DNA of 38,125 nucleotides from Oceanispirochaeta sp. (GTDB taxonomy: Bacteria > Spirochaetota > Spirochaetia > DSM-2461), in contig NZ_JAQIBL010000277.1 of NCBI RefSeq assembly GCF_027859075.1, forward strand, positions 1-38,125, written 5' to 3'. Within the stretch, counting starts at the first letter, position 1, and each line of letters begins with the position of its first letter. Below, one piece after another: positions 1 through 38,009 of the stretch. The position numbers and the translations under genes were made by a program. Under the pieces are notes generated by a model. It saw nothing but the letters and a program-made list of their open reading frames with translations, did not search any database and was not told where the DNA came from.

Positions 1-291
1 GCGCTCTCTTTAGACGATGATGAATTGACTCTTGATTCTGATGAGCTCTCATTGGACGAAGATGAATTGACTCTTGAATCTGATGAGCTCTCTTTAGACG
101 AAGATGAATTGACTCATGAATCTGATGAGCTCTCTTTAGACGATGATGAATTGACTCTTGATTCTGATGCGCTCTCTTTAGACGAAGATGAATTGACTCT
201 TGATTCTGATGAGCTCTCATTGGACGAAGATGAATTGACTCTTGATTCTGATGAGCTCTCTTTAGACGAAGATGAATTGACTCTTGAATCT
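1..291 (+). repeat. 42-bp tandem repeat array inside the acidic protein gene
   Basis: Units beginning gatgaattgact start at 19, 61, 103, 145, 187, 229 and 271, an exact 42-bp period. Bases 1-18 are the tail of an earlier unit and the last copy ends near 291, so about seven copies are visible and the array continues left of the window. The period is a multiple of three, so copy-number change keeps the reading frame. Copies differ at only a few bases, which suggests recent expansion or ongoing homogenisation. Confidence 0.95.
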
Positions 292-1791
292 AAAGAAATG
301 ACCCTTGATGACTTGGAAGATCTCTCTTTTGATTCTGAAGAACCTTCATCAGAGGATGAAGAACTTATCCTTGATTTAACTGCCGATTCAGATCTCTCCC
401 TTGACGAACTGAAGGATGAAAGTGATGATCTGATGACGGAAGAAGTCTCTTTAGATGATTTCGATTTTGATAATGAAGAAGGATCACAGACTCCAGTTCT
501 TGATGTTTCCCTGGATGACATTGAAGAAGTCTCATTGGATGATTTTACCGCTGAAATGGATACCGTCTCTGAAGCCGTTACAGATGAAGAAGAATCAGAA
601 GATTTTAATTTTGATCTGCAGCTCTCTGATGAAAATGGTGCAAATTATGATGAAGGTGAAATTGTAGATTTAAGTGATTCTGATGATTCATTGGAAAAAA
701 GCAAAATTACAAATATAGATGATTTGGATAGTGATGAAATTACAAATATAGATGATATGGATATTGATGAGATTACAATTTCCGATGATCTGGAGGAGTT
801 CTCCGACGATGAGATCTCTCAACCTGCAACAATTAATCTGTTGGATGTTGATAGAGACAATATAATTGACAATATAGATCTTGATTCATCAACTCTTCCG
901 GAAATCCATGATTTTGACGATCTTGAAATAAACAATGCCCTGCCGAATATTATTGAATCAGATGATGAGATCACTCTTGACATTTCCGATATGGATAATG
1001 ATATGAAGGATGAATCAGATGATTTTGATCTTGAAGAACTTGAAATTGAAGATTCTCTGGAATTAGATACTGATATGAAGGATGAACTTGATTCCATTGA
1101 TACAATTCTTGAGGAATCTGACACTTTGATGGATGATGATCTTCCAGGTACAGAAGAGATCGATTTAAACTCATTAGAAGCCTTGGCCATTCCAGAAGAA
1201 GCTGATGTCATTCATGAAGAAGATGCAGATAGTATTGAAATTGATCTCGATGAAATCCCTGATACAATTTCAGGGGCTTTTTCAAACGAATTTAATTCGG
1301 ACATGGATGATGCCGAAGAAGAAGATGTTATTTCAATTGATCTTCCCCAGGAAATCAGTTCTGAAATAGAGGAAGAATTAAGTGAGCCTGAAGAAATCAT
1401 TGATCTGGACATAGAAGAAGTTCCTGAAGAATTTGGTTTTACTAGTGAAATTCCTGCAGAAGAAGAAACTGAAGAGATTATTCACGAGTTAATTGATGAA
1501 GCCAATCCATCTGAAGCATCAAAGCATGAGGCTGCACCACAACAGGATAAAAGCAGTGATAAAGAAGTGTCTCCTGCAGATCTTAAAGAGAGATCATTTC
1601 TCGATGATGCCAACAATAGTGCCAGTTTAAAAAAGCTTCCTCCCGCATTAAGAGAAGAAATAAGAGAAATCCTAACCTATATGGATCAACTACTGGAATC
1701 ACTTCCAGAAGAAAAAATACAGGAATTCGCTCGGAGTGAGTATTTTGAAGTCTATAAAAAGATTTTTGAGGAACTCGGTATCACCAGCTGA
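1..1791 (+). CDS. Asp/Glu-rich repeat protein, 5'-partial
   Basis: The reading frame is open from the first base, so the true start lies outside the window; 596 codons are visible. The first ~97 residues are a 14-residue acidic repeat of the type DELTLDSDELSLDE. The middle (to about residue 500) stays extremely acidic, with a shorter 11-residue repeat (ITNIDDxDxDE) near residues 236-257. The last ~60 residues differ: they are predicted helical and amphipathic (LPPALREEIREIL, then EKIQEFARSEYFEVYKKIFEELGI) and look like a small folded domain. No signal peptide or membrane segment is visible in this part. It overlaps the next gene by one base (TGATG), so the two are translationally coupled. The function is unknown. 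Acidic low-complexity proteins of this kind are often scaffolds or cation binders, but nothing here proves that. Confidence 0.8.
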   Translation, partial: ALSLDDDELTLDSDELSLDEDELTLESDELSLDEDELTHESDELSLDDDELTLDSDALSLDEDELTLDSDELSLDEDELTLDSDELSLDEDELTLESKEMTLDDLEDLSFDSEEPSSEDEELILDLTADSDLSLDELKDESDDLMTEEVSLDDFDFDNEEGSQTPVLDVSLDDIEEVSLDDFTAEMDTVSEAVTDEEESEDFNFDLQLSDENGANYDEGEIVDLSDSDDSLEKSKITNIDDLDSDEITNIDDMDIDEITISDDLEEFSDDEISQPATINLLDVDRDNIIDNIDLDSSTLPEIHDFDDLEINNALPNIIESDDEITLDISDMDNDMKDESDDFDLEELEIEDSLELDTDMKDELDSIDTILEESDTLMDDDLPGTEEIDLNSLEALAIPEEADVIHEEDADSIEIDLDEIPDTISGAFSNEFNSDMDDAEEEDVISIDLPQEISSEIEEELSEPEEIIDLDIEEVPEEFGFTSEIPAEEETEEIIHELIDEANPSEASKHEAAPQQDKSSDKEVSPADLKERSFLDDANNSASLKKLPPALREEIREILTYMDQLLESLPEEKIQEFARSEYFEVYKKIFEELGITS

Positions 1792-2735
1792 TGGGACTAT
1801 TAAACAGAGCCAAAGATTCTCAAACTGAAATTGAAAACAACATTTGGAATCAATTTTTTAACAAGGTAGATTCCCTTGACACAGGAATTGATTTTGCTGC
1901 AGTTCTATTTCGGTATTTAACCGAGTATCTTGAAATTGAAAAGGCTGGCCTTTTTTTAAGTTCTGATAATTTCTCTTCATATAATTGTCTTCAATCAAAG
2001 GGTTATGATAAGACGACAACAAATCGTCTAAGACTTGATAACAAAGTTTTTGACTCTGATGTTTTCAGTATCTTAAAAATGCATAACAAACCTCTTTGTT
2101 CAACAGAAGTTCCTTCATTTTTGAAAGATTATATGTCCACCCGTGAATTTGGACTGCTTGAAGAGATATACTGGTTGCCCTTTTTTGCTGAAGAGAATCT
2201 ATTTTCAGTCATAATGATCACTCAATGGAATAATTTTGCAGCAGAGAATTGGAATGAATCATTCAAAATTATCAGTTCCCGTTATTCAAAAAAAATATAT
2301 AACAGCCGCAAGGCTTTAGTTGTAAATACTGAAGATTCAGCAAGAAAGCCTCAGAAGGAAGTTATTGAATCGGCCCTAAGAAGATATAATGGAAAAGACA
2401 TCACCATCATAAAGGTAAATCTTATGTCACTGGTAAATCTTTTATCAGGAATTAAAGACGGCTTATCCCATTTGAATATCAAGAAGGAAGTTCTTTCTGT
2501 TTTCAGGACTATGGCAGGACCGCAACAGGAAATTCTTGAGGTTGAGAACAATCAGATCCTATTATTCCTGGACAATATACGTATACCTGATAAGAATCTT
2601 TTTCTTCATCAGTTATCTGCATCTTTGCCTTTACTATTTCAGGATCTTGATGAACCGCCCCATCTTGACGTTGTTGAGTATGCTAATCCTTTGAATGAAA
2701 TTGAAAGAGAAGAACTCTTGAGAGTATTATTGTAA
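1791..2735 (+). CDS. GAF-like domain protein
   Basis: This is a 314-residue soluble protein with no signal peptide. Residues ~15-175 have the pattern of a GAF-like sensory domain (FAAVLFRYLTEYLEIEKAGLFL, later LPFFAEENLFSVIMITQW). Residues ~195-310 form a second alpha/beta region with alternating strands (DITIIKVNLMSLVNLL, then ILEVENNQILLFLDN), which could be a degenerate GGDEF-type fold, though this is weak. No catalytic motif is evident. The start ATG overlaps the stop of the acidic-repeat gene by one base, and the next gene begins one base after its stop, so the four genes 1-5885 are clearly one operon. The ligand and role are unknown; a regulatory or scaffolding role linked to the DUF115 proteins is inferred from context. 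Confidence 0.6.
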   Translation: MGLLNRAKDSQTEIENNIWNQFFNKVDSLDTGIDFAAVLFRYLTEYLEIEKAGLFLSSDNFSSYNCLQSKGYDKTTTNRLRLDNKVFDSDVFSILKMHNKPLCSTEVPSFLKDYMSTREFGLLEEIYWLPFFAEENLFSVIMITQWNNFAAENWNESFKIISSRYSKKIYNSRKALVVNTEDSARKPQKEVIESALRRYNGKDITIIKVNLMSLVNLLSGIKDGLSHLNIKKEVLSVFRTMAGPQQEILEVENNQILLFLDNIRIPDKNLFLHQLSASLPLLFQDLDEPPHLDVVEYANPLNEIEREELLRVLL

Positions 2736-2736
2736 A

Positions 2737-4239
2737 ATGGACTTGGAGAAGAGCCGTTCTGGGACTCCAACCGCTAGAATCAATAATAAATATCTTCATT
2801 CCAGGTATGACCCTGTGAAGGAAGCGCACCAATATATTAAGCATTGGATGCAGAATGAGAATTATTCAAAAAATAAATTAATCATTGTTCTAGAGCCTGG
2901 ATTGGGGTATCTACTTAAAGAACTTTATCATTTTCATCCAAAAAGACTGATTTTCTCTGTATTTTTCAGCCAGGAAACCTTCAGGTACTGCAATGACATA
3001 GGTCTTCTCGAAAACATAATCACCTACACTCCTGATATGAACCAAAAAATCTCCGGCATTCTTGACCAAAACTTCGGTCACCTTCCAATCAGGAATATTT
3101 CATTTATGGAATGGTCTGCTGCTGGTCTTCTGTTTCCTGCCGACTGTCTTAGAATAAGAAAAAAGATTCTAGACCATTTGAAAATCATGCAGGGGAACGA
3201 AATGACAAAAAATCATTTTTCTCAGCGCTGGCTTATCAATGGGATAAGAAATTTTATACGCTTTGATTATTCATATACCATCTCTTCCAAAATCGATTTA
3301 CCCGTCATACTGGCTTCTTCTGGTCCATCTCTGGAAAGACACATTCAACGAATAAAAGAGTTTGAATCTTCTTATATAATATCAGCACTGCCCTCTTCTC
3401 TTTCTATTTTAAAAGAGTATGGGATTGTTCCGGACCTGTTATTTACGACAGATCCGGGTTTTTATGCCCGGGAGCATCTTAAATTCCTTGATTCCCGTAC
3501 CATTTGTATTGCTCCTATTACAGCTTCATTTTCTGATAGTGATAATTTAATTTCAGGCATTAATCAGGACAGCTTTATTGAATCTCTTCTCTTCCGTTCT
3601 GGAGAACTACCATTCCTTCCCGAAATGGGCACAGTCGCCGCTTCAGCTCTACTGTTTTTGAAAAGAATTTGCAATGAGACCATCTATATTGCCGGAATGG
3701 ATTTTTGCATCCAAGATATAAAAATGCATGCAGAACCCCACTCATTTTCTCCATATATACTGAATAATGAATCCCGTTTAAATCCGGGAATCACATCATT
3801 TTTTAATCGTGCCACCAACATGGCCTCTAAAAAGGAAGGAAGATATAGATTTTCTAAAAACATGGACACTTATGCCGCCTGGTTTAGAAAGCAAAGCTTT
3901 GATGAGAAAGTATTCAGACTTGAACCGGTATATGTCGATCTTCCAATAAATACAATGAAAATGATTCCTTCTTTGCCAAAAACGCTGAGAAAAAATATTC
4001 AAATTAAGAAATCTACTGGCTATCCCAAATTAGAGACAAGAATGAATAGAGTGTCAGATCTAAGAAAAACATGGATCAAGGATATTCAAAATTTCAAGGA
4101 AAGGGATATAATTTCAAATCCTCTTGAAAAATTACTGTCTGAGTACCTCCCTGAATCTGGTCTTTCAAAATTGAATGAAAAAGACCGTTTTCTCGACAAG
4201 ATGGATAGGCTTATTGATAAGGTAGGCTCTCTTCTATGA
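2737..4239 (+). CDS. DUF115 / Maf-like (MptE-like) protein, first copy
   Basis: This 500-residue protein resembles the DUF115 family (PF01973), which includes motility accessory factors (Maf) that transfer nonulosonic sugars to flagellin and archaeal MptE pterin pyrophosphokinases. The family core is visible: a nucleotide-binding-like strand and turn PVILASSGPSLERHI at residues ~187-201, then GIVPDLLFTTDPGF at ~229-242. The N-terminal part has the LHSRYDPVKEA motif that its neighbour shares as LHSRFDPVKEG. No transmembrane segment is seen. It begins one base after the GAF-like gene and shares an ATGA overlap with the second DUF115 gene. In a spirochaete, flagellin or another surface protein would be a plausible acceptor, but the substrate cannot be read from the sequence. 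Confidence 0.75.
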   Translation: MDLEKSRSGTPTARINNKYLHSRYDPVKEAHQYIKHWMQNENYSKNKLIIVLEPGLGYLLKELYHFHPKRLIFSVFFSQETFRYCNDIGLLENIITYTPDMNQKISGILDQNFGHLPIRNISFMEWSAAGLLFPADCLRIRKKILDHLKIMQGNEMTKNHFSQRWLINGIRNFIRFDYSYTISSKIDLPVILASSGPSLERHIQRIKEFESSYIISALPSSLSILKEYGIVPDLLFTTDPGFYAREHLKFLDSRTICIAPITASFSDSDNLISGINQDSFIESLLFRSGELPFLPEMGTVAASALLFLKRICNETIYIAGMDFCIQDIKMHAEPHSFSPYILNNESRLNPGITSFFNRATNMASKKEGRYRFSKNMDTYAAWFRKQSFDEKVFRLEPVYVDLPINTMKMIPSLPKTLRKNIQIKKSTGYPKLETRMNRVSDLRKTWIKDIQNFKERDIISNPLEKLLSEYLPESGLSKLNEKDRFLDKMDRLIDKVGSLL

Positions 4240-5885
4240 ACAGTATAGTATTGAATAAAAATCTTCTCTGTCTGGCAACGACATCACCCGAGGCTGTTAC
4301 ACAGATCAGTCATAGCAAAGACTCGGTAGATATAAGTTTCATTACGGCCCGAGATGGTCATCTCATTCCAGTATTACAGGGCGCACAAGGGGAGAAACCT
4401 CTTCATTCCCGATTTGATCCTGTAAAGGAAGGGTTCCGTTTTTCGAACCAATATACCTCAAAGGGCACTGTTCTGGCCTATGGGATGGGGGGAGCCTTTC
4501 ATTTACTTCCTATGCTGTCTAATCCCAACTTAACCAGTCTGATCATCATTGAGACTGAACCAGAAATTATGAGGGCCCTCTTAAGCCGTATTGATTTCAG
4601 CCCTCTTTTACTTGATAAAAGGGTCACTCTCTGGATATCCGATAATCCTAATGATTTCAGATCCTACCTCCTGTCAAAGTATATACCCGTTTTATCAGGA
4701 GACCTGCAAAGTTTAAGTCTGCGGACCCGGGTAGAAAGCAATACACACTTTTTTCATAGAGTGGCTATGGTTGTTAAAGAAGCCATCTCTACCATTACTG
4801 ATGATTATACAGTGCAGACACATTTTGGAAAAAAGTGGTTTGTAAACACACTCACAAACTTGAAGGCTTCTGAAGAAACAACCCTGACATTGAATCCAGC
4901 GAATAGTGTTCAGATCACGGCGGCAGGCCCCAGTCTGGAGAAACAACTGGATCATTTGATTCTCTACAGAAATGAATCGACACTCATTGCTACAGATACT
5001 TCCCTGCCGGTACTGCTGAATCATGGTATTAAACCTGATATGGTCATCTCCATTGACTGTCAGCATATTAGCTATCACCATTTTATGCAGGGTTATCCTG
5101 AAGATATTCCATTGGTTCTGGATCTAGCCTCACCTCCATTTTTAACACGTATTGCAAAAAAACACCTTTTCTTTACCAGCGATCATCCCTTCTCCAACTA
5201 TGTGAGTAGAAAATTTCGAAGTTTTCCAAGAATTGATACATCCGGTGGCAATGTAACTCATGCGGCTTTAAGTCTGGCCGAATCACTTGGAGCAAAAAAA
5301 ATAAGCCTCTATGGAACTGATTTTTCTTATCCTTATGGGAAACCCTATTCAAGAGGCAGCTATATTTTCCCATATTTTCAGAAGAGCAGCACAAGAACCA
5401 ACGGTATTGAGAGTCAGTTTCTTGGCTTTGTCCTTCATAATAAATCTTTAAATCGAGAAGATCTTTCTGGTGGCTTCCGTTATATATCAAAGCCCATGAT
5501 TCATTATAAAACGAGTCTTGAAAATAAAGCCAACTCTATGAATGCTTTTGTTGAAAATATCAGAGGGGATGGTGTTTCACTAAATCTGGTGAATAAAAAA
5601 CCAGGGAAATCATATGGATTTCGAATGATGAGTGCAGGACAATCCTTTCAGAGCCGCAGTGATTTTTTAAATGATTTTGCCCGGGAAATCAGAGAGTTTC
5701 CTGAAATAGAAAATTCACTGAGTGAATTCCTTGATTCTCTGAGTCTGGATCAGAAAGGAACCTTGATGTCGATGCTGCCGGCGGCGGCCCATTTTAGAAA
5801 AAATTGTGATTCAGGTGAAGATGCATTGAATCGTGCCAGAAAATGGACATTATCCCTCCTGGACAGAAAAGTTTTTTACGAATAA
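4236..5885 (+). CDS. DUF115 / Maf-like protein, second copy
   Basis: This 549-residue protein is a diverged paralogue of the preceding gene. It has the same N-terminal LHSRFDPVKEG motif (near residue 55), the DUF115 turn AAGPSLEKQLDHL at residues ~228-240, and the partner strand GIKPDMVISIDCQH at ~264-277. A further segment (HAALSLAESLGAKKISLYGTDFSYPYGKPY) matches the family's later Gly-Thr-Asp region. The ATGA overlap with the upstream gene implies coupled translation, and the pair may form a heteromer or act on two substrates. Its 3' end overlaps that of the convergent MEMO gene by 10 bases. Assignment to DUF115 is fairly secure; the role as a flagellin-modifying Maf enzyme is inferred. Confidence 0.75.
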   Translation: MNSIVLNKNLLCLATTSPEAVTQISHSKDSVDISFITARDGHLIPVLQGAQGEKPLHSRFDPVKEGFRFSNQYTSKGTVLAYGMGGAFHLLPMLSNPNLTSLIIIETEPEIMRALLSRIDFSPLLLDKRVTLWISDNPNDFRSYLLSKYIPVLSGDLQSLSLRTRVESNTHFFHRVAMVVKEAISTITDDYTVQTHFGKKWFVNTLTNLKASEETTLTLNPANSVQITAAGPSLEKQLDHLILYRNESTLIATDTSLPVLLNHGIKPDMVISIDCQHISYHHFMQGYPEDIPLVLDLASPPFLTRIAKKHLFFTSDHPFSNYVSRKFRSFPRIDTSGGNVTHAALSLAESLGAKKISLYGTDFSYPYGKPYSRGSYIFPYFQKSSTRTNGIESQFLGFVLHNKSLNREDLSGGFRYISKPMIHYKTSLENKANSMNAFVENIRGDGVSLNLVNKKPGKSYGFRMMSAGQSFQSRSDFLNDFAREIREFPEIENSLSEFLDSLSLDQKGTLMSMLPAAAHFRKNCDSGEDALNRARKWTLSLLDRKVFYE

Positions 5886-10831: not shown

Positions 10832-12115
10832 TCAGCTCAATTCCCTGGATATGGCAATGGCGGCAATGGTTCCGTCAGAGACTGCAGTTGTGATCTGTCT
10901 GAACTTTTTTGTTCTGATATCTCCCGCTGCATATATATCCGGTAGATTAGTCAACATATCCTCATCGGTGACAAGGTAACCAAATTGGTCTTTCTTCAGT
11001 GTCTCAGGGAAGCCTGTCAGATTCGGTAAGAATCCTACAAATACGAATATTCCATTTGTATTAAGGGTTTTTCTTTCCTTGCTTTTCAGGTCTTCAACGA
11101 CAACAGACATATCCATGGAACCATTCTTTATGAATTCCCTGGGCTCATGCTCAAAAAGAATATTGATCTTTTTATTGTTAAAAATCTCTTCCTGAGCCTG
11201 CTTGTTGGCCTGTAGTTCTGCAAACTGATGAATTATCGTGATGGATTTTGCAAATTTTGCAATGAAAAGAGACTCCTCAATGGCGCTGTTCCCACCACCG
11301 ATGACAATGACATCTTTGTCTTCAAAATACTTGGCATCACAGGTTGCGCAATAGGAAATACCATTCCCTCCATATTCTACTTCACCGGGGACACCCAGTG
11401 GTCGTGGTGAAGATCCTGTAGCAATAATAATTTTATTTGCTTTTATGGTTTCAACACTGTCAATTAGAATTTCTTTTTTAACCAGATCAATGGAACTGAC
11501 ATCGACAGCTGGTCTGAAATCCACACCGGCACCCTTGGTTTGTTCACTCATATAATGAGCCAGCATGAATCCCGGCTGAGGTTCGATAAATCCGGGATAA
11601 TTGGAGACCTGATGTGTGGTTGACATATATCCCCCGGTCAGTGCGATATCAATAATGACTGTCTTCAGATGAGCCTGTCCCAGGTAGGTTGCTGCAGTGA
11701 GACCCGCAGGACCACCCCCTAGAACGGCAACATCGTACTCGGTCGTGAAAGTTTTAATGCTGTTGTGAATTCCGGCCGCCAATTCAGGTCCAACCATTTT
11801 ATCTAGGTTTTCAACGATGGCTGAGCGTTTGATCCCACCGGTTTGACGATCAGCTATTTCATTTCCATTCTCAAAATATAATAAAGTCGGAGAGCTTGAA
11901 ACTCCCAGTTCTTCACTCAGTTCTCTGTTTCCCTGTCTGAATACTTTAACAAATTTCAGATCATTGCCATACAGTTCACTTAGAGCCGTAAATTTGGAGG
12001 CCAGAGCCTCACAGGGGGGACATTCAGTGGAATAAAAGTCAACAACAACTTTTCCTCCACCCAGTACTTCAGATTTCCATGCATCCGCATTCAATTCTTT
12101 AATTTTTCCAGCCAT
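10832..12115 (-). CDS. Thioredoxin-thioredoxin reductase fusion protein
   Basis: The protein has 427 residues and two modules. Residues 1-110 are a thioredoxin fold with active site C32-P-P-C35 (CPPC rather than the usual CGPC) and the cis-proline at S75-P76. Residues ~125-427 are a thioredoxin reductase-like flavoprotein with FAD motif GGGPAG (133-138), redox pair C256-A-T-C259, and NAD(P) motif GGGNSA (273-278). The segment after the second Rossmann fold reads IIHQFAELQANK where NADPH-specific reductases have HRRxxFR, so NADPH preference is doubtful. The gene starts 12 bases after the radical SAM gene, with an AGGAG overlapping that gene's stop. It probably supplies thiol reduction or oxidation to the peptide pathway upstream; that role is inferred from the operon. 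Confidence 0.88.
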   Translation of the reverse strand: MAGKIKELNADAWKSEVLGGGKVVVDFYSTECPPCEALASKFTALSELYGNDLKFVKVFRQGNRELSEELGVSSSPTLLYFENGNEIADRQTGGIKRSAIVENLDKMVGPELAAGIHNSIKTFTTEYDVAVLGGGPAGLTAATYLGQAHLKTVIIDIALTGGYMSTTHQVSNYPGFIEPQPGFMLAHYMSEQTKGAGVDFRPAVDVSSIDLVKKEILIDSVETIKANKIIIATGSSPRPLGVPGEVEYGGNGISYCATCDAKYFEDKDVIVIGGGNSAIEESLFIAKFAKSITIIHQFAELQANKQAQEEIFNNKKINILFEHEPREFIKNGSMDMSVVVEDLKSKERKTLNTNGIFVFVGFLPNLTGFPETLKKDQFGYLVTDEDMLTNLPDIYAAGDIRTKKFRQITTAVSDGTIAAIAISRELS

Positions 12116-12127
12116 TTTCAGTCTCTC

Positions 12128-13441
12128 CTATTCTTCAAAATACATCGATAAACCCAAAGACATGAGTTCTTTTACAGGGCGGCAGTCCGGTTTTAGAATA
12201 TTTCCAGTCCTGTTTTTGGCGACAGCGGCACAACCTCCACCACAGGCTAGCTGGACCGAGCAACTCCTGCATTCTTCAATGGAACAGACATCCCGTTCCT
12301 GCCATTGTTCAATCAATTCTTCATTAAGTTTTATTTCTGGGAAAAATTGCCCTAATTCTTCCCCTTCCTTGCCCACTGTAGCAGTACATGAATAAATTTG
12401 TCCGCTGTAATCAAAGGCCCACTCAGTCTTTCCTCCCGGACAGGAATCAAAAAGAGGGTCCGGGAGTTCTCCCTGTTCAAAAAGAAAGCGGGATAAGGAA
12501 AAAGTGGGTCTATGAAATTCAAGGATTTCCGGATGATCCTGAAGCAGTAGATAAATGTGTTCATACATACTGATTCTGCTGAAGAGGAATTCCTGCTCTT
12601 TTTGGCAGGAATGTAGCTCATAATTTCTTCCCAGCTGTGTTTTAAACAGACTCGAAGCGGTCCATCCTTTCTGGATGGCATGATTGGCCAGTTCGGGCAG
12701 GCTGTCAATATTCTGTTTATCCAGAACAACTCTCAGGTTGACGGGTATCTGATTTTCAAGACAGAGACTGACTGCATCTGAAACGATATTAAATGTTGAC
12801 CCTCCCCCTTTCAAGGGACGTCTTATATCATGCATGTCCCTGGGCCCATCAATGGTCAGCTGAATTTCCCGTATTCTGGATTTTTTCAGACGGGGAAGAT
12901 AGGATTCCAGAGAGAATCCGTTTGTAACGATGGCGATAGAAAGACCACGCTCATCGGCTTTATCCAGAAAATATTCAATTATTTTTCTATGATTTTCCGA
13001 TGGGAGAAGTGGTTCTCCCCCGAAGAGGGTCAGATAAAAATCACTGCCTACAAATTTTTGATCAAGATAGGCGTAAAAAGCATCAATGACCTCTTTTTGA
13101 TCCTGAGGTCTGGAATCTTGTACGTATTCCCCCTGATAACAATAGGTGCATTTAAAGTTACAACTGTAATCGGGTACATAAAAAACCTGTATTTCTGCTT
13201 TTTCCTGCTGGTCGCTAATCTCCAGATATGAGTTACGGAACAGAGTTTTTTCTTTTTCTTCATCCATATAGTAACCCTTTTCAATAAAGGGAGCCGGGTC
13301 TTCAAGCTTATCATTCTGAAATTGAAGGGCCATTGCCGAATCAAGGAGATCAGCCTCTCCGCTAAGGGGATTCAGGATATACCAGGATTCTGAATCTTTT
13401 AATTGCGCTGTGATTGTATGAAGTGATTTTCTAAGTTGCAT
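12128..13441 (-). CDS. Radical SAM/SPASM peptide maturase
   Basis: This 437-residue enzyme has the radical SAM cluster motif C94-x3-C98-x2-C101 (CNFKCTYC) followed by FGGEPLL, which fits SAM binding. The C-terminal third (~residues 330-425) is a SPASM domain with many Cys: DSCPGG, YSCTAT, VCSIEECRSC, ACGGGC and a final DC, enough for two auxiliary iron-sulphur clusters. The N-terminal ~85 residues (WYILNPLSGEADLLD) resemble the small recognition domain found at the front of peptide maturases, which is an inference. It lies directly downstream of a 31-codon Cys-containing peptide gene, separated by an attenuator, and upstream of the thioredoxin-reductase fusion. The likely reaction is a radical crosslink (for example thioether) on the peptide; the exact chemistry cannot be told. 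Spacing from an AAAGGA site to the ATG is normal. Confidence 0.9.
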   Translation of the reverse strand: MQLRKSLHTITAQLKDSESWYILNPLSGEADLLDSAMALQFQNDKLEDPAPFIEKGYYMDEEKEKTLFRNSYLEISDQQEKAEIQVFYVPDYSCNFKCTYCYQGEYVQDSRPQDQKEVIDAFYAYLDQKFVGSDFYLTLFGGEPLLPSENHRKIIEYFLDKADERGLSIAIVTNGFSLESYLPRLKKSRIREIQLTIDGPRDMHDIRRPLKGGGSTFNIVSDAVSLCLENQIPVNLRVVLDKQNIDSLPELANHAIQKGWTASSLFKTQLGRNYELHSCQKEQEFLFSRISMYEHIYLLLQDHPEILEFHRPTFSLSRFLFEQGELPDPLFDSCPGGKTEWAFDYSGQIYSCTATVGKEGEELGQFFPEIKLNEELIEQWQERDVCSIEECRSCSVQLACGGGCAAVAKNRTGNILKPDCRPVKELMSLGLSMYFEE

Positions 13442-13453
13442 TTGAATTCCTTT

Positions 13454-13476
13454 AAAAACCGGGCCTTACGGCCCGG
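13454..13476 (-). terminator. Attenuator/terminator between peptide and maturase genes
   Basis: On the - strand a perfect 7-bp GC stem, CCGGGCC / GGCCCGG, closes a GTAA (GNRA-type) tetraloop (stem arms 13470-13476 and 13459-13465) and runs straight into TTTTT. It starts seven bases after the peptide gene's stop and ends just before the AAAGGA site of the radical SAM gene. This placement would let most transcripts stop after the peptide, giving much peptide and little enzyme, as in many RiPP operons. Confidence 0.85.
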
Positions 13477-13483
13477 AACATTA

Positions 13484-13579
13484 TCAGTCGTGGCATCCTG
13501 CAACAACTGGGGAAATCTTAGCACAGCACTGAGCTGTCTTTATTGTCATTCCCGTTTTTTTGCGGATCAGAGATTTCAT
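13484..13579 (-). CDS. Candidate RiPP precursor peptide, 31 aa
   Basis: This short gene reads MKSLIRKKTGMTIKTA followed by QCCAKISPVVAGCHD and TGA. A perfect AGGAGG (13588-13593) lies eight bases before the ATG, the strongest ribosome site in this operon. The basic N-terminal half would be the leader; the C-terminal half carries three Cys (CC and a later C) and would be the modified core. It starts 24 bases after the methyltransferase stop and is followed by an attenuator and then the SPASM maturase. Small size, Cys pattern, strong initiation and position next to a maturase all fit a precursor. No database family is recognised. The alternative, a non-functional leader peptide regulating the maturase, is less likely given the Cys content. 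Confidence 0.75.
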   Translation of the reverse strand: MKSLIRKKTGMTIKTAQCCAKISPVVAGCHD

Positions 13580-13603
13580 AGACTCTACCTCCTATTTTAA
13601 TAT

Positions 13604-14248
13604 TTAACAGCAACATTTCCCGGCTTTAAAACCAGTCAATGTGAAACTGACTACACTGATTTTCCCTTTTTCATAAGGCTTGCTCTCTTCAAGAATATTC
13701 ACCTGAGTAAAACCGGCTTCTTCGAGAAGAGAGAGGTACACTTCTTTCGTGACAGCTCCGGCCCAGCATTCTGAAACTGCAACAGGATCATTGGCATATT
13801 CCAGAGGAACCGTCTCGGAAGAATAGATATCACTGATGGTGAAACGTCCACCTGTTTTTATAACCCTGTAAATCTCGGCCCAGGCTTTACTCTTATTTTC
13901 AATATGATTGAGTACACAATTTGAAATAACCAGGTCTACAGTTCCACATTTAAGGGGAAGAGTTTCCAGATCTGAGTGAATAAACTCAACATTTTTGATT
14001 CCCAGCTTTTCGGCTGTTTTTTTGGCTTTTCTGATCATTCCATCTGAGAGATCAATACCGTATACAAACCCATTCGGTCCTACCTGATCGGCCATTCTCA
14101 GGACATCATTTCCTCGTCCACTTCCCAGATCAAGGCAGGTTTCTCCTTTTTCCGCTCCGGCAAACTGAATGGCTTTACCGCAAGAAAGGCAACAATCACT
14201 GTCGGCCAATTCTGTATATCGTATATTGATTGCGTCGATACTTTTCAC
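13604..14248 (-). CDS. ArsM-like SAM-dependent methyltransferase with Cys-rich termini
   Basis: This is a 214-residue class I methyltransferase. The SAM-binding loop LDLGSGRGNDVL is at residues 39-50 and the acidic GIDLSDGMI strand follows. The order VISNCVLNHIENKSKAWAEIYRVIKTGGRFTISDI, then ECWAGAVTKEVYLSLLEEAGF, is close to arsenite methyltransferases, including Cys positions used there for arsenic. Unusual are an N-terminal CCxxC (C19, C20, C23) and a C-terminal CCC as the last three residues. It starts with GTG at 14248, eight bases after AAAGGA. As first gene of the RiPP-like operon it may methylate the peptide, or act on a metalloid or other soft nucleophile. Its true substrate is open. 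Confidence 0.8.
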   Translation of the reverse strand: MKSIDAINIRYTELADSDCCLSCGKAIQFAGAEKGETCLDLGSGRGNDVLRMADQVGPNGFVYGIDLSDGMIRKAKKTAEKLGIKNVEFIHSDLETLPLKCGTVDLVISNCVLNHIENKSKAWAEIYRVIKTGGRFTISDIYSSETVPLEYANDPVAVSECWAGAVTKEVYLSLLEEAGFTQVNILEESKPYEKGKISVVSFTLTGFKAGKCCC

Positions 14249-14268
14249 AATATGATTCCTTTCTTTTT

Positions 14269-14297
14269 ATTATAAGGGTTGGTAAATGCAAAGTCAA
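14269..14297 (-). promoter_or_regulatory. Promoter of the RiPP-like operon
   Basis: On the - strand TTGACT (14292-14297) and a perfect TATAAT (14269-14274) are separated by exactly 17 bases. Transcription would start near 14262, about 14 bases before the GTG start of the methyltransferase. It is the only strong promoter seen upstream of the operon. Confidence 0.85.
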
Positions 14298-34170: not shown

Positions 34171-35925
34171 ATGACTAAAATATTTTATAATGCTCCTATG
34201 CTGAAAGAATACAGAACTCTTATGCCCTACTACAAAAAATACCGATTCCAGTATCTCTTCGGACTCCTCTGTCTGGTCATTACCAATGCCGGCCAACTCA
34301 TGATTCCCCAATACATCCGTCTCAGTCTAAATTTGATGACCGAAGACAAGGCCACAGCTGAATCCATCCTGAAGCTGGTTTTAGCCTTGGCCTCAGTGGC
34401 TTTTGTCATTGCTCTGGGACGGTTTTTCTGGAGATTCTTTATCAATGGAGCCTCCCAAAAAATTGAAAAGAACCTGAGAGGTCAGATTTTTTATCATCTT
34501 CTTGAAATGAGTTCCTCTTTTTTCGGCCGTCATAAGACGGGAGACATAATGGCGAGGATGACAAACGATATGAGAGCCATCAGGATGGCCAGCGGTATGG
34601 CTCTGGTGGCCTTTGTAGATGGATTATTCATGACCCTGGCCATCCTGTGGATTCTGTTTTCCCGGTACCCGCGACTGGCCATGATAACCATCATTCCTCT
34701 GCCGGTCATCACCGTCATGGTTCTCTTTGCTGGATCCCTTCTGGGGGAAAAATTCAAAGAAGTTCAGGAGCGTTTTTCAAATTTAACATCCACTGTTCAG
34801 GAATCAATGAGCGGCATCAGGGTTATAAAAACATTTAACAGGGAAGATTATGCCCTGGGGAACTTTGAAGAAGATAATAAACGTTATATTCAGGCGAATA
34901 TTTCTCTTGTTAAAATATGGGGAATGATGATGCCCGTCGCAGGATTTCTAACAGGTCTGACAGCCTGCCTGCTCCTTTTCTTCGGTGGACGCATGGTGAT
35001 CTGGGGAGAACTGAATCCTGGAGATTTTGTGGCCGTTATGGCCTATCTGGGAATGCTGGCCTGGCCCATGATGGGAGCTGGTTTTACAGTCAACCTCATA
35101 CAGCGAGGCGCCGCCTCTCTTAAGAGGATCAATAGCATCCTGGATGAGCCAGCTGAAATTGCCAACCAACCTGATCCCACTCAGGTTGGCCCATTCCAGA
35201 GTCTCTCCATCAAAAATCTCGATTTTCATTACAGCAATGAAAGTATTATTAATGATCTGACCCTCTATATCAAGGCGGGAGAATCTCTGGGAATATTGGG
35301 CAGAACGGGAAGTGGTAAATCAACTCTTATCAATCTGCTGCCCCGGATTCTTGAAAGCCCGAGAGGATGTATCCTGTATAATGGCCTGGAAATTCATGAC
35401 CTTGAACTTTCAGCACTGAGAAAGACCATATCACTCATACCTCAAGAAACATTTCTATTCTCTGCCAGTATTATTGAAAACATCCGTCTTGGAAAAAAAG
35501 ATGCTCCACTGGATAAGATTCAGGAGGTGGTTGAATTGACCACATTGGATAGAGATCTGAAAAATTTCCCCAAAGGTCTGGAGACACAGGTGGGAGAAAA
35601 AGGTATTTCCCTCTCGGGGGGACAGAAACAGAGGATAGCCCTGGCAAGAGCCCTCATTGCAGATCCTCAGGTACTCATTCTGGACGATGCCCTCTCGGCG
35701 GTAGATACAAAGACCGAAGAGTTTATCCTCTCCCGTTTTTTTAAAAAAAGAAAAGGACTAACGAATATTTTGATTTCCCATAGAGTGTCTACACTGATGA
35801 ATGCCGACAGTATTATCGTGTTGGATAAGGGAAGGATAATTCAAAAGGGGCATCATGACGATTTGATACTCCAGGATGGGTTGTATCAGAAAATATATAA
35901 GCTTCAATCATTGGATAAATCATGA
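34171..35925 (+). CDS. Heterodimeric ABC exporter subunit with degenerate site (BmrC/YheI-like)
   Basis: This is 584 residues from the first ATG, or 575 from the ATG at 34198 (MLKEYRTLMPYYKKYRF), which fits the family better. Six membrane segments are followed by an ATPase domain with Walker A GRTGSGKST (~377-385), signature [17 protein letters not shown] (~478) and Walker B VLILDDALSAVD (~502). The residue after the Walker B Asp is Asp instead of the catalytic Glu, the mark of the degenerate half in heterodimeric exporters such as TM287/288 and BmrCD. It shares an ATGA overlap with its partner gene. Substrates are unknown, most likely drugs or lipids. Confidence 0.92.
   Translation: MTKIFYNAPMLKEYRTLMPYYKKYRFQYLFGLLCLVITNAGQLMIPQYIRLSLNLMTEDKATAESILKLVLALASVAFVIALGRFFWRFFINGASQKIEKNLRGQIFYHLLEMSSSFFGRHKTGDIMARMTNDMRAIRMASGMALVAFVDGLFMTLAILWILFSRYPRLAMITIIPLPVITVMVLFAGSLLGEKFKEVQERFSNLTSTVQESMSGIRVIKTFNREDYALGNFEEDNKRYIQANISLVKIWGMMMPVAGFLTGLTACLLLFFGGRMVIWGELNPGDFVAVMAYLGMLAWPMMGAGFTVNLIQRGAASLKRINSILDEPAEIANQPDPTQVGPFQSLSIKNLDFHYSNESIINDLTLYIKAGESLGILGRTGSGKSTLINLLPRILESPRGCILYNGLEIHDLELSALRKTISLIPQETFLFSASIIENIRLGKKDAPLDKIQEVVELTTLDRDLKNFPKGLETQVGEKGISLSGGQKQRIALARALIADPQVLILDDALSAVDTKTEEFILSRFFKKRKGLTNILISHRVSTLMNADSIIVLDKGRIIQKGHHDDLILQDGLYQKIYKLQSLDKS
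34186..34200 (+). promoter_or_regulatory. Candidate -10 box for leaderless exporter mRNA
   Basis: A perfect TATAAT at 34186-34191 lies six bases before ATG 34198, with no Shine-Dalgarno before that ATG or the one at 34171. It suggests transcription starting at the initiation codon. The -35 region (TGGTTC at 17-bp spacing) is weak. Confidence 0.4.
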
Positions 35926-38009
35926 AAGTACCTGAAGAAAACGAAAAGGACATCGATTCTCGGATCATAAAAAAGCTCATGAAATTTACGGATAAATACA
36001 GGCATTGGTTTATTCTGGCCATTGCAGCACTCATTTTATCAACCGTTGCCGAATTAGCACTTCCTGTCATCCTGCAGCAGAGCATTGACAGGAATATCAT
36101 GGCCCACTGGACCTGGATAAGCGCTGACCTGGAAGTGACAGAGAAACTAGTCGAAGGTCATGACAATTACAGAGACAAAGAAAACAGGGTCTTTATCCTG
36201 GAAAGTGAATTAAGGGGAATCAACAGCAGAGAAAGAACTCTTTATCAGGAACAGGGCATGATGGCCGACGAGAGCTGGTATGTATTTCAAGGAGATAGTG
36301 TTAAGGATCAGATCCTGGGGGAAATGAATCAAATCGTTTCTCTTGAAAAGGGAAAAACCGCCGTTCCTCATAGTATATTGAAGTCTCTGGATCAGGAAAA
36401 TTATAAATCTATCAGAGCTCAGGATGTTATGGTACTCAAAAAAAGAGCCTGGCAATATTTTATGCTGTTGCTGGTTATTCTAGTGTTCACATTCCTTCAA
36501 ATATTTTTAATGTCCTGGACCAGCCAGGGAGTTATGAAAGATATCCGGTCCACCATGCTCTCTCATATCATGAAACAATCATTGAGTTACCTGGGAGAAA
36601 CACCCATCGGGTCACTGGTTTCCCGCATAACCAGTGATGTGGAAACCATTAATGAGTTCTTTACATCTGTGACCATCTCCATCCTGAAAGATATCGCCAT
36701 TATGGCGGGAGTTCTTGTGACTCTCTTCTTCCTCAACCCCCTACTTGCATTGGTCACTCTATTGACCATACCACCTGTTTTGCTGGCATCCTTCATCTTC
36801 AGAAAGATGGCCCGCAGCGCATTCCGCAGACAAAGGCATTGGATTTCCAGAGTCAATAGTTTTTTGTCAGAACATGTCTCGGGGATGGAGGTGATCCAGA
36901 TTTTCGGGCGGGAAAAAGAAACCCGTGATCAATTTGGTGAAGATAATGAAGAATTGCTCAAAGCCTCCATGTCGGAAATGTATATTTTTGCCGTCTTTAG
37001 ACCACTGGTCGATCTGTTCAGTTCTGTCACTCTGGCAATTGTCATCTATGCGGGAGCCGCCATGCTGAACCGCCATATCCTCTCATTGGGAATTCTGATT
37101 GCTTTTATTGATCTGATACAGAAATTTTATAGACCTGTTATGGATATGAGTGAGAAATTTTCAATCATGCAGTCTGCCATGGCCGGAGGAGAGCGTGTCT
37201 TTTCACTGCTTGAAGAGAGTTACGAGATTTCTGATAAGGGAATAAATACCCCGGAAGAGAAAATCGAGGGAAAAATCGAATTCAAGAATGTTTGTTTTTC
37301 CTACAAGCCGGGAGAACCGGTGATCAGAGATCTCAGTTTTGTTGTACACCCTGGAGAAACCGTAGCCATTGTCGGATATACAGGGGCAGGAAAGACAACG
37401 ATAGCCTCCCTGGCTACCCGTCTTTGGGATATCGACTCAGGAACCATTCTTTTAGACGAGACCCCCCTGGAAGACTACAGCCTGGCCTATCTCAGACAGT
37501 CGATTCAGGCGGTACAGCAGGATGTTTTTCTTTTTTCAGGAACAATAAAAGAAAACATTACCCTGGGCAGCCCGATCGATGATGCCACCCTGATGAAGGC
37601 TGCCGAAACCGTACAGGTTGACCGGTTCATAGACACTCTGGATAAGAAATATAATACAGAGCTTCAGGAACGGGGGAAAAATCTCTCTGGTGGACAGAAG
37701 CAACTCTTGTCTTTTGCAAGAGCCGTTGCCCATAATCCTGTTGTTTTGATCCTGGATGAAGCCACTGCCAATATTGATACTGAAACGGAAAAACTCATCC
37801 AGAAAGCCATGGATAATCTGCTCATCGGCAGAACCTCCCTGGTCATCGCCCATAGAATCAGCACCATCATGAAAGCCGACAGAATTCTTGTATTGTCTGA
37901 AGGCAGGCTGGTGGAATCAGGAAGTCATGAGGAACTGCTTACCCGGGAGGGATTGTATTATAACCTTTACAATTATCAGTATGCATCATCTGAAATGAAT
38001 GGAATTTAG
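35922..38009 (+). CDS. Heterodimeric ABC exporter subunit with canonical site (BmrD/YheH-like)
   Basis: This 695-residue partner is ~110 residues longer than the first because of an insertion between membrane segments 1 and 2 (~residues 50-165, rich in Glu and Lys). This matches the extracellular domain seen in BmrD/LmrD-type subunits. The ATPase domain has Walker A GYTGAGKTT (~484), signature LSGGQKQLLSFARAV (~587), canonical Walker B VLILDEATANID (~608) and H-loop LVIAHRISTI. With the first subunit it should form one active and one inactive ATP site. Confidence 0.93.
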   Translation: MKVPEENEKDIDSRIIKKLMKFTDKYRHWFILAIAALILSTVAELALPVILQQSIDRNIMAHWTWISADLEVTEKLVEGHDNYRDKENRVFILESELRGINSRERTLYQEQGMMADESWYVFQGDSVKDQILGEMNQIVSLEKGKTAVPHSILKSLDQENYKSIRAQDVMVLKKRAWQYFMLLLVILVFTFLQIFLMSWTSQGVMKDIRSTMLSHIMKQSLSYLGETPIGSLVSRITSDVETINEFFTSVTISILKDIAIMAGVLVTLFFLNPLLALVTLLTIPPVLLASFIFRKMARSAFRRQRHWISRVNSFLSEHVSGMEVIQIFGREKETRDQFGEDNEELLKASMSEMYIFAVFRPLVDLFSSVTLAIVIYAGAAMLNRHILSLGILIAFIDLIQKFYRPVMDMSEKFSIMQSAMAGGERVFSLLEESYEISDKGINTPEEKIEGKIEFKNVCFSYKPGEPVIRDLSFVVHPGETVAIVGYTGAGKTTIASLATRLWDIDSGTILLDETPLEDYSLAYLRQSIQAVQQDVFLFSGTIKENITLGSPIDDATLMKAAETVQVDRFIDTLDKKYNTELQERGKNLSGGQKQLLSFARAVAHNPVVLILDEATANIDTETEKLIQKAMDNLLIGRTSLVIAHRISTIMKADRILVLSEGRLVESGSHEELLTREGLYYNLYNYQYASSEMNGI

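Follow-up and report, generated by a model that had tools for sequence, protein, structure and literature searches.

A four-gene cassette on the minus strand of an Oceanispirochaeta contig

We analysed a 38,125-nucleotide stretch of DNA from Oceanispirochaeta sp. (contig NZ_JAQIBL010000277.1, assembly GCF_027859075.1; the whole stretch is called the window below), in which four genes on the minus strand form a cassette that includes a short, cysteine-containing peptide. In order of transcription, they encode an ArsM-like S-adenosylmethionine (SAM) methyltransferase with a GTG start (13604-14248, 214 residues), a putative precursor peptide of 31 residues (MKSLIRKKTGMTIKTAQCCAKISPVVAGCHD; 13484-13579, with a TGA stop followed by TAA), a radical SAM/SPASM maturase (12128-13441, 437 residues) and a fusion of thioredoxin with thioredoxin reductase (Trx-TrxR; 10832-12115, 427 residues). 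The first-pass annotation of this DNA had described these four co-directional genes as an undescribed operon resembling those for ribosomally synthesised and post-translationally modified peptides (RiPPs), and their coordinates and content proved correct, as did its account of a 31-codon peptide with three cysteines and a perfect AGGAGG ribosome-binding site (13588-13593, minus strand), which lies 8 nt 5' of the ATG.

A short cysteine peptide is conserved with the maturase

To follow the peptide beyond the window, homologues of the SPASM enzyme were gathered from 84,980 species genomes (the 80 best loci) and from 98 spirochaete genomes, the two sets of loci partly overlapping. Upstream of every homologue with at least about 50% identity and intact upstream DNA lies a short open reading frame (ORF) that ends in [Q/L]CCAKxSxxxxGCHD-stop, and the peptide is kept in every complete homologous locus; the loci of the homologue sets that lack it are four that are truncated in or close to the SPASM gene, together with two distant homologues. 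In the window, the conserved core QCCAKxSxxxxGCHD occupies positions 13487-13531 (minus strand). Across 105 loci, some of them duplicated, we obtained 98 distinct 45-nt DNA cores, in which nine residues (C, C, A, K, S, G, C, H and D) are invariant and the Q is near-fixed (97/98). Because these nine residues do not change while synonymous codons vary freely, the peptide is under purifying selection.

The DNA pattern of the peptide had 25 matches in the 98 spirochaete genomes, one per genome and each in a genome bearing the SPASM gene, and the reversed-pattern control had none; this control, together with the synonymous codon variation, rules out a chance ORF. The first-pass annotation had proposed such a search in other spirochaetes and had made its reading depend on a conserved short cysteine peptide upstream of homologous maturases, which we find in every testable homologue. 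The N-terminus of the peptide, MKSL[IV]xKK, is conserved and basic, and it is followed by a linker of varying length, giving totals of 30-45 residues, so that at the level of sequence a conserved N-terminal segment, a variable linker and an invariant core resemble the leader and core of a RiPP precursor. Three additional Bacteroidota cassettes carry the same core, and the peptide is not represented by any model in NCBIfam or Pfam.

More distant SPASM homologues, at 26-31% identity (L109, L110 and L136-L138), lack a cassette-type peptide, indicating that the peptide signature belongs to the clade of the cassette enzyme. Different short cysteine peptides, for example ...PWICVGYVDCIGKCDSICSPVVQLD and ...IAGGGCYMVKHCPQNLI, lie near two of these homologues (L136, reverse strand, ~1279; L110, reverse strand, ~1316) and possibly represent other RiPP families. 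Within the cassette clade, the peptide of one locus (L149; MKLLTRVRKACCTPEKTAQCCAKASRLVAGCHD) has an extra CC before the core, and the same is seen in L145-L147.

The TGA stop of the window peptide, along with the existence of ArsM-type selenoproteins (PMC13188914), raises the question of a misread selenoprotein, with selenocysteine encoded by the TGA after GCHD or standing at a core cysteine position. Stop codons over the loci are, however, TAA in 70 cases, TGA in 22 and TAG in 13, and all three core cysteines are encoded by TGT or TGC in 98/98 cores, which rules out the selenocysteine reading and leaves it with a negligible probability.

The four parts of the cassette are inherited together

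Cassette members were found in Spirochaetota, Bacteroidota, Ignavibacteriota, Elusimicrobiota and Acidobacteriota, as well as in a deltaproteobacterial metagenome-assembled genome (MAG); two of the hosts, Carboxylicivirga linearis FB218 and Marinilabiliaceae bacterium A049, are apparently isolates. All four parts are confined to the same 27 of the 98 spirochaete genomes, with the clade SPASM gene present in 27, the peptide and the cassette-type methyltransferase in 25 each and the Trx-TrxR fusion (E<=1e-100) in 26. Genomes short of a part have contigs that begin or end inside the cassette, and the fusion, at this threshold, occurs only in cassette genomes. A DNA search with the peptide pattern alone (CC-8 residues-GCHD-stop), covering 189 genomes in the phylum of the deltaproteobacterial MAG, gave nine matches, eight of them inside cassettes; these eight peptides contain the A, K and S of the core though the pattern did not demand them, and the ninth match has TGG at the stop position and no cassette gene near it. 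At one of these eight cassettes (L149, G365:C149, positions 1-5000), the methyltransferase, peptide and Trx-TrxR genes form one operon and the SPASM gene lies convergent beside it, showing that gene order can change while the four parts stay together.

Outside the genus, the enzymes are ~50-60% identical to those of the window, and the peptide core is nearly invariant between phyla. Across 84 non-redundant loci, the pairwise distances measured for each of the three enzymes correlate with those for the others (Mantel r 0.81-0.83), and the tree mostly tracks phyla; a few Spirochaetota, Ignavibacteriota and Bacteroidota rows stand amid other groups, which could reflect binning error or transfer. 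The peptide is single-copy in each genome counted, and its core is not diversified. A plasmid-borne element was ruled out, as neither the peptide nor the maturase had a match among 72,556 plasmids.

The SPASM enzyme resembles peptide maturases

The SPASM enzyme contains the CX3CX2C motif at Cys94/98/101 and the complete set of seven SPASM cysteines (C334-X12-G-X4-C352, C391-X2-C394-X5-C400-X3-C404 and C420), and its radical SAM and SPASM cysteines are 97-100% conserved in the alignment. The best Foldseek matches of its AlphaFold model (predicted local distance difference test score, pLDDT, 91.8) are to CteB (5wgg and 5why) and extend over nearly the full length, suggesting a fold of the peptide-maturase type. 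The CteB structure contains an N-terminal RiPP recognition element (RRE; PMC8172795). In the model of the cassette enzyme, the N-terminal domain is beta-rich and then helical, and, judged from this secondary structure and the overall Foldseek similarity, with no RRE or PqqD match in Pfam, it is consistent with an RRE. The enzyme reaches the cut-off of none of the NCBIfam maturase families: its best scores are to TIGR04463 (rSAM_vs_C_rich; 132.5 bits, cut-off 525) and NF038107 (CefB; 132 bits, cut-off 600), and it scores 89.8 against the SCIFF maturase model (cut-off 425) and 113 against the PapB model (cut-off 340).

We also observed an extra near-invariant cysteine, Cys279 (codon at ~12605-12607, minus strand), which belongs to a GRNYELHxC motif and is not one of the usual SPASM ligands. 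At another locus (L108, G035:C261), the SPASM gene is broken by a stop and a frame change, with the peptide and methyltransferase genes intact; this is either an assembly error or a decaying copy.

The peptide could in principle serve unmodified, as a metallothionein-like or redox peptide, with the SPASM enzyme acting on another substrate, since its three cysteines, His and Asp could bind metal and it is nearly all core. We regard this as improbable, given that each peptide found has a SPASM gene beside it and each testable SPASM gene of the clade a peptide, that the peptide has leader-like and core-like parts, and that the modelled fold of the enzyme points to peptide maturation.

The methyltransferase retains the arsenic-binding cysteines of ArsM

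In an alignment to 4kw7 and 4fr0, Cys23, Cys111 and Cys161 of the methyltransferase align with C72, C174 and C224 of CmArsM, of which C174 and C224 are mentioned as As(III) contacts (PMC10190100), and this triad is invariant in 98/98 alignment rows. The AlphaFold model of the methyltransferase (pLDDT 92) has As(III)-bound ArsM (4fsd) as its best Foldseek match. Against the curated profile NF008823, it scores 196.4 bits (E 6e-58), below the cut-off of 263, over profile positions 58-233 of 272. His115 and Trp162 are invariant residues specific to the family, and the C-terminus is a cysteine-rich tail in most members (GKCCC in the window). By sequence, the methyltransferase is a separate short subfamily that lacks the C-terminal part of ArsM. 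As it keeps the three As(III)-binding cysteines, methylation of the peptide is not the sole reading, and the conserved triad suggests that its target may be a bound metalloid or other soft electrophile rather than a peptide to be tailored.

The Trx-TrxR fusion consists of an N-terminal thioredoxin domain with a CPPC motif at residues 32-35 and a C-terminal thioredoxin reductase domain with CATC at 256-259, both motifs being invariant or nearly so in the alignment. Its domains are assigned to PF00085 and PF07992 in Pfam, and against TIGR01292 it scores 291.8 bits (E 4e-87), below the cut-off of 343.5.

Taken with the peptide, these enzymes could be read as a metalloid module, in which the three-cysteine peptide carries As(III) (or Sb or Se), the methyltransferase methylates the bound metalloid, the fusion supplies reductant and the SPASM enzyme shapes the peptide. 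The As(III)-binding triad and fold match, the cysteine-rich tail and the three invariant peptide cysteines all fit such a role, and a Trx-TrxR system is the type of reductant known for arsenic methylation. Among the 98 spirochaete genomes, ACR3 is also somewhat more common with the cassette (20/27 vs 32/71, p=0.013, uncorrected for phylogeny); however, this link is weak and no ACR3 match lies beside the cassette. Canonical ArsM shows no association in the same genomes (5/27 vs 12/71, p=1), no ars-type gene was found among the identified recurrent neighbours, and the methyltransferase belongs to a distinct subfamily below the ArsM cut-off. An arsenic operon was rejected on these grounds, and we hold a metalloid module of the kind described to be possible but doubtful.

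Transcription signals and genomic neighbourhood

A sigma-70-type promoter, TTGACT-17-TATAAT (14269-14297, minus strand), matches the consensus at 11/12 positions and is the best of nine promoter-like sites in the region, bearing out the strong promoter reported initially. Between the peptide and the maturase lies a terminator- or attenuator-like hairpin, CCGGGCC-GTAA-GGCCCGG-TTTTT (13454-13476, minus strand), with a 7-bp G+C stem and a T5 tract. Since the numbers of promoter-like sites (9 vs 7.2 in shuffles) and terminator-like sites (4 vs 3.3) are close to those of shuffled sequence, both elements rest on their own quality and on relatives. All four genomes of the genus that carry the cassette have the hairpin, as do a minority of loci elsewhere. 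The attenuator annotated before the maturase is present with its T5 tract, but most loci are without it, and it was rejected as a general feature of the cassette, being restricted to the genus and some relatives. A structured RNA was rejected, as Rfam gave no match.

In the window, the cassette is flanked by a PLD-family gene and two short, unassigned ORFs, in agreement with the initial remark that no exporter or protease gene sits beside it, and the recurrent neighbours across the 80 loci likewise include no exporter, protease or immunity gene. These neighbours comprise DUF302 (28/80 loci, in 26 of them within 300 bp), DUF6132 (26/80) and DUF1847 (18/80), along with Crp-type regulators, a Fer4 protein and Trx lipoproteins. 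A defence island was rejected, the PADLOC matches being at superfamily level only (pVip, through the radical SAM core, and mad2, through the methyltransferase). About 20 kb from the cassette, on the opposite strand, the window contains a large gene whose domains are ABC_membrane and ABC_tran (34171-35925, plus strand), followed by another large ORF (region 34171-38009); this region was not seen as a recurrent cassette neighbour elsewhere.

This neighbourhood bears on whether the cassette makes an exported ranthipeptide or sactipeptide with an antimicrobial or signalling role, as might be expected from a SPASM enzyme that adjoins a cysteine peptide and has the ranthipeptide maturase CteB as its nearest relative of solved structure. 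Such a product has little to recommend it here: the core is undiversified and present at one copy per genome counted, the short peptide has no obvious cleavage site, and genes for export, proteolysis and immunity are absent from the recurrent neighbours.

In the spirochaete genomes, DUF1847 occurs in 21/27 genomes with the cassette and in 6/71 others (p=4e-11), and at the genus level in 14/19 vs 2/36 (p=2.5e-7), this genus collapse being the only way in which shared ancestry is handled in the p-values. It is also present in 16/26 further cassette genomes drawn from the 80 best species-genome loci. DUF1847 is a candidate partner or client of the product. The gene for this cysteine-rich protein lies directly downstream of the Trx-TrxR gene in G009, G010, G027, G028, G042, G054, G055, G067, G089 and G094, as a likely fifth gene of the cassette. 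In Bacteroidota loci (L033, L045, L062, L079, L041 and others), a gene for a thioredoxin lipoprotein stands between the methyltransferase and the peptide. DUF6132 is often found upstream in these loci and DUF302 immediately after Trx-TrxR, making up an extended version of the operon.

A probable route to an intracellular crosslinked peptide

We consider it probable that this is a RiPP-type cassette that yields one fixed, conserved cysteine peptide, crosslinked by the SPASM enzyme and acting intracellularly as a cofactor or thiol carrier, a chemistry and role that we infer. In this scheme, the SPASM enzyme would bind the N-terminal MKSLxKKK segment of the peptide through its RRE-like domain, and its 5'-deoxyadenosyl radical would create at least one bond within the core. 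Cys-thioethers would be the likeliest product, by analogy with CteB and PapB, with the conserved Ser, Lys, His or Asp as possible acceptors. At least one peptide thiol would be left free to act as the functional group of the mature peptide. The ArsM-type methyltransferase would place its methyl group on a thiol-held soft atom, which could be a sulfur of the peptide or a bound metalloid, and the Trx-TrxR fusion would use NADPH to keep the peptide, the methyltransferase or both reduced. The product would then be retained by the cell, serving as a cofactor or thiol carrier, instead of being exported as an antibiotic; this is expected because the core is fixed across phyla, the peptide is single-copy and a conserved exporter is lacking.

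Several considerations weigh against this scheme. The evidence consists of genes, motifs, co-inheritance and selection on the peptide, from which every chemical step is inferred, and the RRE has been read from secondary structure and Foldseek similarity with no domain match. Retention in the cell rests on the lack of a conserved neighbour, and export could instead go through a transporter encoded elsewhere. In Bacteroidota, the cassette is often joined by genes for periplasmic-type Trx lipoproteins, DUF302 and the membrane protein DUF6132, a possible sign of a function at the cell envelope.

More specifically, and only tentatively, we suggest that the product is a peptide-derived intracellular thiol cofactor or metalloid carrier, with a radically crosslinked 15-residue core, methylated by or together with the ArsM-type enzyme, cycled by the NADPH-driven Trx-TrxR fusion and serving clients of the DUF1847 type. 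If this is true, it would represent a previously unknown peptide-derived cofactor or carrier, and possibly a new cofactor class.

Comparison with known systems

Our literature searches found no description of the cassette, and a RiPP survey of Bacteroidales, checked by keyword, mentions neither thioredoxin nor arsenic. With a peptide at every testable maturase, no family cut-off reached and no published description found, the designation of an undescribed RiPP-like operon is supported. As in RiPP systems generally, a short precursor gene stands beside a modifying enzyme and the two are conserved together.

The closest comparison is with ranthipeptide or SCIFF systems (CteA-CteB thermocellin, Tte1186 and PapA-PapB freyrasin), in which a SPASM enzyme likewise adjoins a short cysteine peptide; maturases of the CteB type provide the closest solved structure to the cassette enzyme and resemble it in having two auxiliary clusters and in the N-terminal domain, which in the cassette enzyme is a candidate RRE. 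SCIFF peptides contain about six cysteines in a 45-residue region (PMC8172795), and PapB links Cys to Asp or Glu (PMC9413430). The cassette peptide, in contrast, has three cysteines in a fixed 15-residue core and is accompanied by an obligate methyltransferase and Trx-TrxR fusion. The families TIGR04463 and NF038107 (CefB) are also maturases of C-rich peptides, but the cassette enzyme falls far below their cut-offs.

Like ArsM and AS3MT, the methyltransferase has the methyltransferase fold and three As(III)-binding cysteines, and it differs from them in its length of 214 residues, the missing C-terminal domain, the residues His115 and Trp162 and a score below the NF008823 cut-off. The fusion shares its domains and active-site motifs with TrxB and with other Trx-TrxR fusions, but has the thioredoxin domain at the N-terminus, CPPC instead of CGPC, a score below the TIGR01292 cut-off and a distribution confined to the cassette.

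Pyrroloquinoline quinone (PQQ) and mycofactocin are conserved, undiversified RiPPs that proved to be cofactors. The cassette resembles such systems in its single conserved precursor core, present in one copy, and in a product that appears to be kept and not diversified; it differs from them in its enzymes and in having no known client enzyme, DUF1847 being the only candidate. Overall, the cassette works like a SPASM RiPP system but, in the features compared, does not fit the named maturase families, SCIFF peptides or ArsM as curated, and it would join radical SAM peptide chemistry, arsenic-type methylation and thioredoxin redox control, fields that seldom meet.

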